Source of the DNA: an uncultured Mediterraneibacter sp.
Lineage (GTDB): Bacteria > Bacillota > Clostridia > Lachnospirales > Lachnospiraceae
Reading direction: 5' to 3'
DNA: 40,190 nucleotides
Assembly: GCA_944377745.1 (NCBI GenBank)
Contig: CALWFV010000032.1
Location: 1-40,190, forward strand
A program made the position numbers and the translations under genes. This document shows, one piece after another, positions 19,199-25,992 of the stretch. Position 1 is the first letter of the stretch. Every line of letters starts with the position of its first letter. The notes beneath the pieces were generated by a model, which was not told the origin of the DNA, ran no database searches, and was given only the letters and a program-made list of their open reading frames with translations.

Positions 19199-19831
19199 GT
19201 GCAGAAAAAGACGGATCGCAGAGTCAGAAAGACAAAGAGCCAGCTTCGCATGGGCTTGGCGCGTCTGATGAAAGAGAAAAGCATTGGGGAGATCACAGTA
19301 CGGGAACTTGTGGACGAAGTTGACATCAACAGATCGACATTTTATCTGCATTATTCTGATATCCCAAGTCTTCTCAGAGAGATCGAGGACGGGATGATGG
19401 ATGAGATGGAGAGAGCGATACAGGAACATCCCATTGATATCAGGGAAAATACGACTCTGTATTTTATCCGGGATATTTTCCAGGTGCTCGCGGAAAACAG
19501 AGAGATCGGATGCGCTCTCGTGGGTCCTCACGGGGATATCGGGTTCATCCGCCGGATCGAAGAGCTCCTCGAGGAATACAGCAGAGATACTCTTGCAGAG
19601 ATGTTTCCGGAGAAGCTTGAGGAGATGAAATATTTTTACTCATTCTGCCTGAACGGATGTCTGGGCTTCGTAAAGACATGGCTGGAGGAAGGTGCGGACA
19701 AAAGTCCGGAATATGCGGCAAGGCTGACGTTTCATATGGTAGTAAGCTCTATGAAAGCATTTTATGAGACGGCAGAGGAGCCGTTTTCTGATGCAGAGGA
19801 GCTGAAAGTCAAAAATGGAAGAGAGGATTAA
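19199..19831 (+). CDS. TetR/AcrR-family transcriptional regulator
   Basis: A 210-residue regulator. The N-terminal helix-turn-helix is clear (ITVRELVDEVDINRSTFYLHY at about residues 31-51), preceded by a basic arm; the rest is an all-helical ligand domain of the type seen in DhaS-like Firmicutes regulators. Translation starts at GTG 19199, nine bases after AGGAGG; the nearby ATG is out of frame. The transporter gene begins four bases after its stop, so the two form an operon and the regulator probably senses a substrate of that transporter (inference). Confidence 0.88.
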   Translation: MQKKTDRRVRKTKSQLRMGLARLMKEKSIGEITVRELVDEVDINRSTFYLHYSDIPSLLREIEDGMMDEMERAIQEHPIDIRENTTLYFIRDIFQVLAENREIGCALVGPHGDIGFIRRIEELLEEYSRDTLAEMFPEKLEEMKYFYSFCLNGCLGFVKTWLEEGADKSPEYAARLTFHMVVSSMKAFYETAEEPFSDAEELKVKNGRED

Positions 19832-19835
19832 GTGA

Positions 19836-21206
19836 ATGAAAAGAGAAAGTTTTGGCTCCCGTCTGGGATTCATACTGATCTCGGCAGGATGCGCGATCGG
19901 TCTGGGGAATGTGTGGCGTTTTCCTTATATTACTGGACAGTACGGAGGTGCGGCGTTTGTGCTTATTTACCTGTGCTGCCTTGTGCTGCTGGGACTGCCG
20001 ATCATGGTGATGGAATTCTCGATCGGGAGGGGATCAGGATGCAGTATCGCCAGGGCGTTTGAAAGGCTGGAGCCGTTGGGAACAAAATGGCACTGGTATA
20101 AATGGTTCGGCATCGCAGGAAATTATCTCCTCATGATGTTCTATACGACAATAGGCGGATGGCTTCTGATCTATCTGTACAAGATGGCTGCGGGAAGTTT
20201 TGAGGGGATGGATGCGGCGCAGATCCAGGGAGAATTTGGAGAGCTGATGGGGCAGCCGGTCCTTATGACAGTTTGCATGGCTGTTGTTGTGTTCCTGTGT
20301 TTTGGTATCGTAAATCTGGGACTGCAGAAGGGGGTCGAGGGGATCACCAAGATCATGATGGTACTTCTTTTCATCCTTCTGATCATCCTTGCGATCCGCT
20401 CGATCCTGCTTCCCGGAGCCGGGGAAGGGCTGAAGTTCTATCTCCTTCCGGATTTCGGCAAGATGAAAGAGGCAGGTATCCTGGAAGTGATCTCTGCGGC
20501 AATGAACCAGTCCTTCTTTACGCTGAGCCTTGGGATCGGCGCGATGGCTATCTTCGGAAGCTATATAGATAAGAAGAGAAGGCTGGCAGGCGAGGCAGTG
20601 GCTATCACGGTACTGGATACCAGTGTTGCTTTGATCTCCGGGCTTATTATCTTCCCGGCAAGCTTTGCTTTCGGGGTGAACCCGGACAGCGGACCGAACC
20701 TGATCTTCATCACTCTGCCGAATATTTTTAATTCTATGGTAGGCGGAAGGCTCTGGGGAGCAATCTTCTTCCTGTGTATGTTCTTTGCATCGGCGTCCAC
20801 GATCATCGCCGTGTTTGAAAATATCATTGCGTTTGCAATGGATCTGACAGGATGCTCAAGGAGAAAAGCAGTGGCGGTCAACCTTGTTGCGATCCTGGTG
20901 CTCTCTATGCCGTGCGTGCTCGGATATAACGTACTGAGCGGATTCCAGCCTTTTGGAGAAGGCTCCGCGATCCTCGACCTCGAGGATTTCATTGTGAGCA
21001 ACAACCTGCTGCCGCTGGGAAGCCTGATCTACGTGCTTTTCTGCACTACCCGGTACGGATGGGGATGGGATAAATTCCTGAAAGAAGCCAATACGGGAGA
21101 AGGTCCCAAATTCCCCAAATGGGTAAGACCCTATGTAACATATATCATTCCTCTGATCGTAATATTCCTGTTCATCCAGGGATACTGGAGCAAATTTGCA
21201 GGCTAG
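19836..21206 (+). CDS. Sodium-dependent amino acid transporter (NSS family)
   Basis: A 456-residue neurotransmitter:sodium symporter homologue (LeuT/MhsT/TnaT type). The first helix has the hallmark GCAIGLGNVWRFPYITGQYGG in overlapping blocks, with the unwound G-L-G-N centre, and helix 6 contains NQSFFTLSLGIGAM. Eleven to twelve helices are visible. Members carry hydrophobic or aromatic amino acids with Na+. GAGAGGA in the end of the TetR gene serves as ribosome site. A perfect 24-bp terminator follows. Confidence 0.93.
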   Translation: MKRESFGSRLGFILISAGCAIGLGNVWRFPYITGQYGGAAFVLIYLCCLVLLGLPIMVMEFSIGRGSGCSIARAFERLEPLGTKWHWYKWFGIAGNYLLMMFYTTIGGWLLIYLYKMAAGSFEGMDAAQIQGEFGELMGQPVLMTVCMAVVVFLCFGIVNLGLQKGVEGITKIMMVLLFILLIILAIRSILLPGAGEGLKFYLLPDFGKMKEAGILEVISAAMNQSFFTLSLGIGAMAIFGSYIDKKRRLAGEAVAITVLDTSVALISGLIIFPASFAFGVNPDSGPNLIFITLPNIFNSMVGGRLWGAIFFLCMFFASASTIIAVFENIIAFAMDLTGCSRRKAVAVNLVAILVLSMPCVLGYNVLSGFQPFGEGSAILDLEDFIVSNNLLPLGSLIYVLFCTTRYGWGWDKFLKEANTGEGPKFPKWVRPYVTYIIPLIVIFLFIQGYWSKFAG

Positions 21207-21221: not shown

Positions 21222-21282
21222 AAAGAAAAAGGAGTACCCGCTCATCATGCTCGCATGAATGAGCGGGTACTCCTTTTTCTTT
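21222..21282. terminator. Very long perfect hairpin terminator
   Basis: Arms 21222-21245 and 21259-21282 pair over 24 bases without mismatch, with AAAGAAAAA on one end and TTTTTCTTT on the other, so it can act in both directions. The 13-base loop contains a nested CATGC/GCATG pair. Confidence 0.9.
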
Positions 21283-21389: not shown

Positions 21390-21420
21390 TTGACTGTATA
21401 CCGGTTATATACTTTAACAT
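21390..21420 (+). promoter_or_regulatory. MerR-type promoter with 19-base spacer
   Basis: TTGACT (21390-21395) and TAACAT (21415-21420) are separated by 19 bases instead of 17, and the spacer holds the inverted repeat GTATA-N7-TATAC (21396-21412). This overlong spacer with a central operator is the hallmark of promoters activated by MerR-family proteins, which untwist the DNA to realign the boxes. It lies about 75 bases before the MerR-permease gene. Confidence 0.8.
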
Positions 21421-21493
21421 GGGTGTATGGAGAAAACAAAAGCAGTGGTTTTTCAGAACGTAGGATCATGAAAGTCAGGCGGGAGGTGTGAGC

Positions 21494-23455
21494 TTGAATA
21501 CAAAACAGGTGGAGGAACTGACAGGAATGTCCCGGCAGAATATCCGGTATTATGAGCGGCAGGGACTGCTTGAACCGGCAAGGGAGGATGGCAATGCATA
21601 CAGGGATTATTCCGAAGAAGATGTGCGCAGGCTGAAGCTGATCAAAATGCTCCGGATGCTGGATATGCCTCTGAAAGAGATCGAGAATGTGATAAACGGG
21701 ACTGTTTCCATACAGGAAGCGGCAGCGCGGCAGCAGGAAGAACTTGAACGGCACCAGCGCCAGCTCCAGGCGGCGATCACGGTCTGCGGCAGTATCCATA
21801 AAGAGAAGGATGGAAATGTGGATGTGGACGGCTATCTGAAAAAGATGGAGAGCATGTCCGTGAATGGAGGAGCATTTGCCCGTTTCATCGATGACTATAA
21901 GCAGGTAGTCCAGGAGGAGCGGGAGAGGATGTTTTCCTTTTATGCGGACGGTCCGGTCAATACAGCCGGCATGTTTGAACGGGAACTGAGACGATATGCG
22001 TCAGAACAGGGGCTAAGATTCCGTATGATCAAAAAAGGAAGATATCCCCAGTTCCTCATGGGGACAGATACTTATACGGCGGTGCGGGTGGTGGAGAAAA
22101 ATGTAAAAAATGAGGGCGGTCCGTCTGTAAAGATCATCTGTGAACGAAAAGATCCCGGAGAAATCCCGGGAAAGATACCGGAAGGACGAAGGCGAGTCAT
22201 AAAAGGTATTCATATCGTGGCAGTCAATATCCGGCGTCACAGACGGAAAAGTATCCTGAATCTGCTGCTGAGCCTCCTCAGCGTGACGGTGCTGGCTTTT
22301 TATCTTGGAGCTATCGGAAGCGCCCGGCGTATGATCACTGAGCTTCCGGAGAAGTTCACGATAACGGGCGAGATATGGAATATGTGCGGAGAACTGAATC
22401 ATGGGCTGTTCATCTCGCATCAGGTTCTGGAGGATCTGTACGAGTCATCTTATATCAGTGAGATCGCAGAGAGCGCGGAACTTATGGGAGAACTGGAGAA
22501 CGGCGCGGGAGGCACAACGGATGAAAGCGGAAAAGTCCCGGCTGGGGAGGAAGGTATCCCGGACGATGTGACGCTTGCCGGGGTCAACCGGATGGAATGT
22601 ATCGAGGGGATGACAGAAGAGGATATTGCCTGGGAGAGCGGGACGGACTGGAAGGAGTTCCAGGAGAGCAGCGACGCCTGCCTGGTGAGCGAATCTTTTG
22701 TGCGGGAATCAGGCATTACGGTGGGAGAGGATATACAGTTCGGCCTTGAGCGGTATTCCCAGGGACTTGCAGGCGTGACGCTGACCCGGGAAGAACTGAC
22801 GCCGGAGGTGTTCCATGTCGCGGGGACATATAAAGAACTTCAGGGGAGGGACGGCGGAAATCCGGATGTGCTGCTTCCCCTGGATGCGGTGAAAAATATT
22901 TATGAAAGAAATGATATCGTGTATTTTGCCTCTGCCCTGTCTTTTAAGGCGGCGGACCCGACGAGGCTGGATGAAGTGAAGCGGGAACTGGCAGACGCCG
23001 GGCTGAAAGAGATCATTTACGGATCCCCAAATTCTTATGTGGGCATCAGCGTGAAGCTGACGGACTCGGTCTTTATCCGATCTATGGAGAGCGCGGACAG
23101 GAGCCGGGCGCTGTTGGAGAGTTTTCTCCCGTTTATCTTCCTCATCGTGGCAGCGGCGGGATATATCATCCCAAGCCTTCTCTTCCAGGACCGGAGGGAG
23201 GAATATGCTGTCATGCGGGCACTGGGAACAGGGAAATATTTCGGCGGGAGCCTGTTTTTCGCGGAACATATCCTGCCGGCTCTTGCGGGCGCCCTGACCG
23301 GAGCAGTTCTGGCGGCGGCAGCGGGAGCGGTGGATTTTGCAGGCATGATGCTTGTGTGGGGGACATATATGGCGGTTTACATGCTGGGAGCCGCGGCTGC
23401 CATGTGGAAATTCGGAAGATTCAGTATTGCGGCTGTGCTTGCGCACAGAGATTGA
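21494..23455 (+). CDS. MerR DNA-binding domain fused to FtsX/MacB-type ABC permease
   Basis: About 653 residues. Residues 1-70 are a full MerR winged helix (KQVEELTGMSRQNIRYYERQ, then LKLIKMLRMLDMPLKEI), 75-100 a dimerisation coiled coil, 110-235 a soluble linker domain of unknown type, 253-275 the first membrane helix, 277-540 a large extracytoplasmic domain, and 545-640 three more helices with the FtsX-like EEYAVMRALG signature between the first two. The frame runs through without interruption. TTG 21494 fits GGGAGG at 21481-21486 (seven-base gap); GTG 21488 is too close. Its ATPase follows after nine bases. It would be a membrane-bound regulator that is also half of an ABC exporter. Confidence 0.88.
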   Translation: MNTKQVEELTGMSRQNIRYYERQGLLEPAREDGNAYRDYSEEDVRRLKLIKMLRMLDMPLKEIENVINGTVSIQEAAARQQEELERHQRQLQAAITVCGSIHKEKDGNVDVDGYLKKMESMSVNGGAFARFIDDYKQVVQEERERMFSFYADGPVNTAGMFERELRRYASEQGLRFRMIKKGRYPQFLMGTDTYTAVRVVEKNVKNEGGPSVKIICERKDPGEIPGKIPEGRRRVIKGIHIVAVNIRRHRRKSILNLLLSLLSVTVLAFYLGAIGSARRMITELPEKFTITGEIWNMCGELNHGLFISHQVLEDLYESSYISEIAESAELMGELENGAGGTTDESGKVPAGEEGIPDDVTLAGVNRMECIEGMTEEDIAWESGTDWKEFQESSDACLVSESFVRESGITVGEDIQFGLERYSQGLAGVTLTREELTPEVFHVAGTYKELQGRDGGNPDVLLPLDAVKNIYERNDIVYFASALSFKAADPTRLDEVKRELADAGLKEIIYGSPNSYVGISVKLTDSVFIRSMESADRSRALLESFLPFIFLIVAAAGYIIPSLLFQDRREEYAVMRALGTGKYFGGSLFFAEHILPALAGALTGAVLAAAAGAVDFAGMMLVWGTYMAVYMLGAAAAMWKFGRFSIAAVLAHRD

Positions 23456-23464
23456 GAGGGATAT

Positions 23465-24142
23465 ATGGAACGGATCAGAGTAGAATCAGTGAGTTATTCG
23501 TATCAGAACAAATATCAGACTGTGGAGGCGGTGAAGGATGTTTCCTGCTCTTTTGAAACGGGAACGCTGTACGCGGTCACCGGGGAATCAGGGAGTGGAA
23601 AAAGTACGTTCCTTTCTCTTCTTGCAGGACTTGACTGCCCGGATAAAGGGAAAATCTTTGTGGACGGGGAAGACCTGAGCGTTATCGACCGGGATGCATA
23701 CCGCAGAGAGAAGGTGGCGGTCATTTACCAGGCGTTTCATCTTTTCCCTCTGCTCACCGCCCTGGAGAATGTCAGATATCCCCTGGAGATACAGGGAATG
23801 CCGCGGAAAGAGGCGGGAGAACAGGCAAGAGGATATTTATGTGCGGTAGGGATCGGCGAAGAAAAGTTTGGGAAATATCCCCGGATGATGAGCGGGGGAG
23901 AACAGCAGCGGATAGCCATCGCCCGGGCAATGGCGTCCGGCGGAAAGCTCCTGCTCGCCGACGAGCCTACGGGGAACCTGGATACGGAGAATGAGGAGAA
24001 GGTGGTAGAGCTTCTCATCTCTCTTGCTCATGACCGGGATTATACAGTCATTCTGGTGACGCACAACCGGGAGATCGCAGAGCGCGCGGATGTCTGGATG
24101 GTCATGAAGGACGGAAGACTGACCGTGAAGCCCGGACTGTGA
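23465..24142 (+). CDS. ABC transporter ATP-binding protein (MacB/LolD type)
   Basis: A 225-residue nucleotide-binding subunit. Walker A is GESGSGKST (about 40-48), the Q-loop is VIYQAFHLF, the signature is MSGGEQQR (about 142) and Walker B is LLLADEPTGNLD. It belongs to the clade that powers MacB, LolCDE and BceAB-type mechanotransmission exporters. It lies between its two presumed permease partners; its stop overlaps the upstream signals of the second permease gene. Substrates of this class in Firmicutes are often antimicrobial peptides or lipid-associated compounds; nothing here fixes the ligand. Confidence 0.94.
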   Translation: MERIRVESVSYSYQNKYQTVEAVKDVSCSFETGTLYAVTGESGSGKSTFLSLLAGLDCPDKGKIFVDGEDLSVIDRDAYRREKVAVIYQAFHLFPLLTALENVRYPLEIQGMPRKEAGEQARGYLCAVGIGEEKFGKYPRMMSGGEQQRIAIARAMASGGKLLLADEPTGNLDTENEEKVVELLISLAHDRDYTVILVTHNREIAERADVWMVMKDGRLTVKPGL

Positions 24143-24153
24143 GGTGGTTGAGG

Positions 24154-25992
24154 ATGACATTTTATTACAGTATAAAACAGATGATGAGAAGCCCGCTTAA
24201 AAGTATCCTCTTTTTCCTGCTCATTGCTGTGTGCGCTTTTTTTCTGGCACTGGGAGGGGCGTTTGCGTATATGGGAAGCGACGAGCTCCAGGGGTTTGAT
24301 GAGAAGTTTACGACCATTGGCACTGTGGAGCAGAAATATGAGGGGACAGAGACACGTTCGAGCTGGGATCCCGAGAAACAGACATACGAATACTACAGTA
24401 CAGGATATTTCGGAGAATGGATCGACGACAGTGAGCTGGCGGATCTTGACGGAGTTGACTATATCCTGGAGCCGAAACAGCGCCCGTATTTCGGGGCGTA
24501 TATCGAGGATCTTTACGACGGGATCGGAAGCCCGAACTGGGGGACTGTGGTCGCCGCTCCGGTGGAGACCGGAAGCATGTATCCGTCACTGCTCATGCGC
24601 GTCGTCCGCACGATCGACGGAACGATGGAAGAGGGAGAGCTGTTTTACCTCTGCGACCATCAGGGCCGGACTCCGGATGTACTGGAGGCAGGGAAGGAGT
24701 ATGTGATGCAGATCTATATGGCGAACTTCGCCCACGGTCCGGCGGTCAGCGAGGGAGAAGAGGTGATGGAATACTGGCTTGCCTACGGGATCCATTCCAG
24801 GCAGTATACGATGGAAAAGGAACGGGTCTATGATCCGGTGAATGAAGAGGAGCGCTATTATGACGAAGTGACAGACGGTTTCTTTGAGACGGAGCGGGGA
24901 AAACGGTGGCTCAAGATGGAGAATTATCAGGATCTCGCCATGCATACGATCCCGGTGCAGCCCACGGACGGAACCTGTCTTCTCATGCACTTTTATGACA
25001 ACGAAGCACAGATCACGGAAGGGCGGGACATTACGGAAAAAGAGTATAAAGAAGGCGCAAAAGTATGCCTTGTTCCTGAGAACCTTGCCATGCGCCTTGG
25101 AAAGGAACTGGGGGATACTCTGACGCTTCCTCTTTACTATGCAGATTATTCCCGTTCGGTAGGGGAGGCGTCCATGCTGGGCGCAGGCGGCTGTCAGCTG
25201 AACAATATACTGAATGCAAAGGGAGAACTTTATGAAGTGTTCGATGAACAGGAATATAAGATTGTAGGGATCTACACGGCGGAGGATAAAGGCTCCGGCG
25301 CCTACAGCGCCGGAGAAAATGAAGTGGTGATACCATGGAATGCTGTGCCGGAGGATTCCTGGAAGGACAACATCGTGGGCTGGTATCCCATGAGCGGTGC
25401 GACCACATCCTTTCAGATCCCAAACGGGACCATCGAAGAGTTCCAGGAGAAATGGGATGCCCTGGGAATCGATGAGCTGGAGATCCGTTTTTATGATATG
25501 GGATATACCCAGCTTCAGGAAAATCTGGAGAACCGGAGACTCATGTCAGTAATATTCCTTATAAGCGGATGTGTGATGGCGGTCATGATCCTGTGTTTCT
25601 TTTCCAGCCTGTTTATCACAGGGCAGAGGGAGAGGATCGCTGTGGAACGCCTTATGGGGCGGACGAAGCGACAGTGCGCAGCGTCTATCCTGACGGGGAT
25701 GCTCCTTCTGAGTGCCGCAGGATGTGCCGTCGGGAGCGCTGCCGGGTGGCTGGCGTCCGGGAAGGCGGCTCAGAGCGCGGGAGATACGATCGAGTTTGAC
25801 AGGACGTACAGCGATAATGTGATCGCGAATACAGAACCAGAGTCGGAGGCAGAGGCAAAACAGGCCGGACCGGTCCTGCCCTGTATAACCGGCGGCATCC
25901 TGCTTGCGACGTCGGCAGCGGTTTCCGGGGGTTATATGGGAAAGGTGCTGAGGAAAGAACCGCTCAGGATGCTGGGGGAGATCGAGGAGTAA
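24154..25992 (+). CDS. FtsX/MacB-type ABC permease, second subunit
   Basis: About 612 residues. One helix near residues 13-35 (ILFFLLIAVCAFFLALGGAFAY), an extracytoplasmic domain of roughly 425 residues rich in Asp, Glu and Tyr, then three helices at the C-terminus. This is the four-helix plan of type VII ABC transporters. It has no MerR domain, in contrast to its partner at 21494. ATG 24154 is chosen over GTG 24139, which would overlap the ATPase stop; GAGGTGG sits just upstream. It ends the operon, with a terminator 45 bases later. Confidence 0.88.
   Translation: MTFYYSIKQMMRSPLKSILFFLLIAVCAFFLALGGAFAYMGSDELQGFDEKFTTIGTVEQKYEGTETRSSWDPEKQTYEYYSTGYFGEWIDDSELADLDGVDYILEPKQRPYFGAYIEDLYDGIGSPNWGTVVAAPVETGSMYPSLLMRVVRTIDGTMEEGELFYLCDHQGRTPDVLEAGKEYVMQIYMANFAHGPAVSEGEEVMEYWLAYGIHSRQYTMEKERVYDPVNEEERYYDEVTDGFFETERGKRWLKMENYQDLAMHTIPVQPTDGTCLLMHFYDNEAQITEGRDITEKEYKEGAKVCLVPENLAMRLGKELGDTLTLPLYYADYSRSVGEASMLGAGGCQLNNILNAKGELYEVFDEQEYKIVGIYTAEDKGSGAYSAGENEVVIPWNAVPEDSWKDNIVGWYPMSGATTSFQIPNGTIEEFQEKWDALGIDELEIRFYDMGYTQLQENLENRRLMSVIFLISGCVMAVMILCFFSSLFITGQRERIAVERLMGRTKRQCAASILTGMLLLSAAGCAVGSAAGWLASGKAAQSAGDTIEFDRTYSDNVIANTEPESEAEAKQAGPVLPCITGGILLATSAAVSGGYMGKVLRKEPLRMLGEIEE

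Follow-up and report, generated by a model that had tools for sequence, protein, structure and literature searches.

Activators of the MerR family (CueR, CadR, BmrR and MerR) share a winged helix, a dimerisation helix and a promoter whose 19-bp spacer carries a dyad, and they often control transporters; promoters of the family have spacers of 19-20 bp with a palindrome between the -35 and -10 elements (available parts of PMC9909328 and PMC1526738). The FtsX-type exporter BceAB has been proposed to feed information on its own activity back to transcription of the genes that encode it (available parts of PMC10314905 and PMC6978683), and the transmembrane regulators CadC, ToxR and BcrR are one-component proteins that act from the membrane (available part of PMC10269533). 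Each of these ingredients is already known: MerR regulation, exporters of the FtsX type and one-component regulators bound to the membrane. What appears to be new is an exporter permease bearing a MerR domain for its own promoter, which we describe here from an uncultured Mediterraneibacter sp. of the Lachnospiraceae (assembly GCA_944377745.1). The stretch of DNA that was analysed, here called the window, is one whole contig of 40,190 bp (CALWFV010000032.1).

Compared with CueR, CadR, BmrR and MerR, in which regulator and transporter are separate proteins, the regulator at this locus is part of the transporter. Its ATP-binding cassette (ABC) exporter resembles the LolE/MacB/YtrF types of the FtsX superfamily in having one transmembrane segment (TM), a large outside domain and three further TMs, together with a separate ATPase and two different permeases, but here one permease has an N-terminal MerR domain and a middle domain. 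The locus shares with BceAB-BceRS an FtsX-type exporter and a coupling of activity to its own genes, which is here proposed; however, the DNA-binding domain sits on the permease and takes the place of a kinase and a response regulator. By Pfam, structure model and hydropathy the fusion combines a DNA-binding domain and at least one TM in a single chain, which is the definition of a membrane regulator in the available part of PMC10269533. That survey does not describe the transmembrane regulators it names as subunits of an exporter, and neither permease nor FtsX occurs in its available main text. The original prediction had known of no system of this exact type, and we likewise found no description in open-licence papers of an exporter permease with a MerR domain for its own promoter, which is weak evidence of absence.

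A MerR domain fused to an exporter permease

A single uninterrupted reading frame on the forward strand (21488-23455, 655 aa) encodes a protein with a MerR_1 domain at the N-terminal end and a MacB/FtsX-like permease at the C-terminal end. The GTG at 21488 was rejected as the start codon. We assigned the start to the TTG six bases downstream because this position is conserved among copies of the gene, in which TTG, ATG or GTG at the MNTKQ position aligns behind the ribosome-binding sequence GGAGGTG. Pfam analysis of the 655-aa frame placed MerR_1 over its cut-off (residues 5-70, E 3.7e-19) and MerR-DNA-bind (7.7e-5), MacB_PCD (5.9e-5) and FtsX (0.0034; 17.8 bits, cut-off 25.5) under theirs. 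Foldseek with an AlphaFold monomer model (predicted local distance difference test score, pLDDT, 72; predicted template modelling score, pTM, 0.43, which does not fix how the domains are arranged) matched LolE, LolC and MacB with a best E of 5e-13, and the N-terminal part of the model matched CueR and CadR (E 4e-4). Among six scanned fused relatives from other genera MerR_1 was over its cut-off in every one, and both MerR_1 and FtsX were in four (L116, L120, L121 and L123, not L117 and L118).

The permease topology, assigned from sequence only, consists of TM1, the outside domain and TM2-TM4 with the N-terminus inside, and hydropathy separates TM3 and TM4 poorly; an arginine-rich stretch precedes TM1. 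Alignment and model also indicated an alpha/beta middle domain of about 120 residues between the coiled coil and TM1. A fold search with this domain returned no PDB match at E 0.001 or better, and no ligand-binding fold was recognised. The complete winged helix, coiled coil and four-TM permease of the original prediction were all found, but the middle domain had been overlooked. The ATPase and the second, MerR-free permease that it placed downstream are also present. The ATPase begins nine bases after the stop codon of the fusion and contains all four motifs sought (Walker A, signature, Walker B and H-loop). Its stop codon and the beginning of the second permease gene overlap.

Copies of the fusion were sought in a sample of 99 genomes, 58 of them of the same genus and the window's own genome included. 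The fusion was found in 15 of the 58. Thirteen hold the whole frame at 66-100% identity with no inner stop, one (G030) is split across two contig ends, and one (G020, L043:5489-6805) is shortened by a deletion. In this last genome the match covers residues 2-437, the fusion breaks off at residue 438, the promoter is kept, and the ATPase and second permease are deleted with the rest of the operon, with flanks that still align. A second-permease profile, a query that misses fusions without a relative of that permease, was run against 397 genomes of the family (334 genera) and matched 19, 13 of them strongly. All 13 strong matches were examined, and three of the six weak ones were read (G947, G1010 and G1103 were left out). 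A small permease of 627-662 aa fused to MerR was present in nine of the strong matches (8 genera) and an unfused one of 402-433 aa in the other four; none of the three weak matches was fused. In all nine fused loci the ATPase and second permease adjoin the fusion. Since a MerR-containing profile detected a full-length fusion among 391 genomes of the class in the window's own genome only, the fusion is rare outside the family. A profile of the permease half gave six matches in 392 genomes of the order (the own genome, the deletion remnant and four without MerR), and a second-permease profile gave the own genome and two weak matches in 398 genomes of the phylum.

A proposed promoter that accompanies the fusion

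A new line of evidence, and the strongest, is a promoter of the type that MerR proteins act on, which goes strictly with the fusion in the genomes compared. It lies 104 bp upstream of the fusion start codon (Table 1); the first T of its TTGACT, at 21390, is the coordinate at which the original prediction had begun the region. At every one of the nine fused family-level loci the fused gene is preceded by TTGACTGTA, a spacer of exactly 19 bp and a -10-like hexamer. Across the 15 same-genus copies this block is conserved, whereas the rest of the upstream DNA hardly aligns. The best centre of the spacer dyad is base 14 of a 31-bp element, with 44 of 63 positions complementary.

We searched for the pattern TTGACTGTA-N16-TNNNNT upstream of small permease genes, and found it at nine of nine fused loci versus none of six unfused ones. 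It arose in 1 of 18,000 dinucleotide-preserving shuffles of the upstream regions. Because other genes of the cluster precede two of the six unfused controls, whole stretches were scanned as well. This gave one site in each of the nine fused stretches and none in 11 unfused stretches (10 loci). The unfused regions L075 and L125 fit a loose pattern with a 20-bp spacer, by chance. The 23-bp promoter core has a single occurrence in the window's genome with up to three mismatches allowed. Among 98 relatives, at up to two mismatches, it occurs once in each of 14 of the 15 fusion-bearing genomes, always just upstream of the fusion, and not at all in the other 83; the reversed control gave no site. 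The fifteenth fusion genome, G015, carries a more diverged version of the promoter.

Table 1. Features of the exporter locus, in window coordinates
Feature	Position	Strand	Evidence or detail
Terminator-like hairpin	21222-21282	+	24-nt perfect arms, T-rich; after upstream symporter gene
-35 element TTGACT of proposed MerR-type promoter	21390-21395	+	TTGACT in 9 of 9 fused loci and all 15 Mediterraneibacter copies
19-bp spacer GTATACCGGTTATATACTT, proposed operator	21396-21414	+	imperfect dyad; length 19 and initial GTA in 9 of 9 fused loci
-10-like element TAACAT	21415-21420	+	4 of 6 consensus bases
Ribosome-binding site GGAGGTG	21482-21488	+	kept in alignment of upstream regions
MerR-permease fusion	21494-23455	+	653 aa, TTG start
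MerR winged helix-turn-helix, residues 1-70	21494-21703	+	MerR_1
Dimerisation helix, residues 71-104	21704-21805	+	30-residue helix 73-102 in monomer model
Middle domain, residues 105-228	21806-22177	+	alignment; model; common to 2-TM MerR proteins
TM1, residues 257-275	22262-22318	+	hydropathy; model helix 250-282
Outside domain, MacB/LolE-like, residues 276-544	22319-23125	+	MacB_PCD under cut-off; Foldseek
TM2-TM4, FtsX-like, residues 545-653	23126-23452	+	Pfam, model, hydropathy
ABC ATPase, 225 aa	23465-24142	+	ABC_tran 3.8e-32
Second permease, MerR-free, 617 aa from GTG 24139 (or ATG 24154)	24139-25992	+	FtsX 3.5e-8, MacB_PCD 1.6e-6, both over cut-off

Relatives, neighbourhood and origin

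The hairpin listed in Table 1 separates the exporter operon from an upstream symporter gene. A TetR-type regulator lies beside this SNF-family sodium symporter (19199-21206), and the symporter frame also stands beside the fusion in several same-genus copies. No two-component system was found near the fusion among eight neighbourhood proteins scanned, nor among three further ones. Around the unfused relatives no separate MerR gene, which the original prediction had set against a true fusion, was detected in the stretches read, some of which are short (L122 is a 4-kb contig). At one unfused relative, L074, a response regulator and a histidine kinase adjoin the exporter, resembling the Bce arrangement. 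At another locus (L073:1346-4519, G414) a 1057-aa frame carries the second permease followed by the small permease in one chain, with the ATPase adjoining.

Outside the family, the closest unfused relative detected (G472; E 5.8e-71) lies in a radical S-adenosylmethionine (SAM) peptide cluster, of the ribosomally synthesised and post-translationally modified peptide (RiPP) class, with the Cys-rich-peptide maturase CcpM (TIGR04068, 550.9 bits, cut-off 500) and TIGR04066 (279.7 bits, cut-off 200). A Cys-rich frame of 60 aa that matched no family adjoins the cluster and may encode the precursor. Because this closest relative sits in a RiPP cluster, the substrate of the exporter is probably a peptide. 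The G472 cluster (L086/L083) also contains a subtilisin-like protease and an MsbA-type exporter.

A family of MerR proteins of about 289 aa combines MerR and the same middle domain with two predicted C-terminal TM segments and no exporter (2-TM MerR proteins). Members were found in the window's own genome (G000:C4:125188-125895) and in relatives (L019-L024, L046-L049 and L085), with 36-44% identity to the fusion over the MerR and middle-domain part, and a TTGAC promoter with a 19-bp spacer precedes the gene at 10 of the 11 loci checked. These proteins may form a class of membrane-bound MerR sensors that has yet to be characterised. Frames of about 505 aa (L029:1504-3009, L026, L027 and L030) join MerR_1 to an RDD membrane domain, as seen by a Pfam scan of L029 only. 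Both kinds of protein come from the same lineage and, like the fusion, place MerR on a membrane protein, but they lack an exporter domain. The likeliest history is a single event in which the small permease of a peptide exporter acquired a membrane-tethered MerR protein of the 2-TM kind. In quick tree searches with long branches, the second-permease tree placed the nine fused rows in one clade (Shimodaira-Hasegawa-like approximate likelihood ratio test, SH-aLRT, 96), and the small-permease tree needs two changes yet is compatible with one origin.

Carriage as cargo of a mobile element was considered and rejected: the fused protein had no match in 72,556 plasmid records. Two of 50,697 phage records match the fusion over residues 1-242 only (MT838979.1 and MT835737.1, unannotated, from human faeces), which is the MerR and middle-domain part at 36.6-38.1% identity. 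The 25 stretches in viral contigs that fitted the pattern included no relative.

Proposed self-regulation and its alternatives

Sequence comparison establishes the fusion, the operon, the single site and the strict link between fusion and promoter, and on these grounds self-regulation by an exporter-borne MerR domain is well supported. The earlier suggestion that the exporter may act directly on its own promoter gains strength from a MerR-type promoter that was seen only alongside the fusion. We consider it fairly probable that the locus encodes a self-regulating ABC exporter, whose MerR domain binds its own promoter and switches the three-gene operon in response to the state of the exporter. 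The permease would hold the MerR domain on the cytoplasmic face, where it would bind the 19-bp-spacer promoter. At rest the operon would be poorly transcribed, and on a signal two paired fusion chains would activate it through MerR-type DNA distortion. The most likely signal would be the substrate-bound or cycling exporter, with TM1 and then the middle domain relaying it to the MerR dimer, because by analogy the cycling of BceAB is proposed to be sensed by BceS. The level of the pump would then follow demand, as it does for BceAB through that separate kinase.

Several observations count against this proposal. The -10-like hexamers of the fused loci have 4-5 of 6 consensus bases, exact TATATAC occurs in only five of their nine spacers, and the dyad is imperfect, weakest in L121 with its poor right half. 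A looser promoter pattern appeared in 301 of the 18,000 shuffles. The RiPP linkage comes from a single unfused locus, at which TIGR04069 is under its cut-off. One fusion chain per heterodimeric exporter leaves the MerR domain unpaired, so that two exporters or a homodimer of the fusion would have to meet, a puzzle that the original prediction had raised and that stands. Finally, the sensor could be the middle domain, or else the outside domain, which the original prediction had suggested alongside the transport state. The more specific idea that a MerR dimer on its own promoter reads the transport cycle within the same polypeptide, two exporters on DNA forming a one-protein flux sensor that replaces a Bce-type two-component relay, is tentative, and we hold it to be somewhat nearer to wrong than right.

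If the middle domain were an ordinary cytoplasmic ligand-binding domain, the permease would serve as anchor and regulated pump, and sensing would proceed without transport. The existence of MerR plus middle domain without an exporter in the 2-TM proteins, with the same promoter type, speaks for this. However, no ligand-binding fold was recognised, the 2-TM relatives are also membrane proteins, which makes a membrane signal equally possible, and the presence of the fusion in a single lineage of exporters hints at some reason for coupling; we regard this explanation as unlikely. Homeostatic autorepression, in which the MerR domain only limits the exporter level and senses no substrate, would agree with a single site before its own operon. 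Plain repression has no need of the 19-bp spacer that is exact in all nine loci, and MerR proteins with such promoters usually activate (available part of PMC9909328), which leaves this a very improbable account.

Still less credible is a MerR domain that is a relic or purely structural, with no action on DNA. Free MerR dimers are indeed hard to square with a heterodimeric exporter, but the promoter element accompanies the MerR domain, and no segment is better conserved across the 8 genera than the helix-turn-helix. Mean pairwise identity among the nine fused proteins is 0.76 in the winged helix, the highest of six segments compared, with 0.53 in the coiled coil, 0.38 in the middle domain, 0.38 in the outside domain and 0.47 in TM2-TM4. 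The MerR part is the most constrained, which fits a domain that binds DNA at a fixed target and does not fit a relic. The window comes from a draft genome of 85 contigs, but an assembly or frameshift artefact joining two genes, the event that the original prediction had named as fatal, was not seen and is rejected with near certainty, refuted by the 13 stop-free frames of the genus and by a further eight genomes, in seven other genera, that carry the fusion.

We propose that in this self-regulating exporter a pump of a gut bacterium probably adjusts its own production. If this is true, a single chain would couple transcription to substrate flux, the shortest wiring for need-based control that we can think of. 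It would open to test how a membrane-bound MerR dimer distorts a promoter, and whether the conformational cycle of an FtsX-type exporter can serve as a signal with no kinase involved. The close association of domain and promoter would also offer a ready reporter for a substrate hunt in gut Lachnospiraceae.

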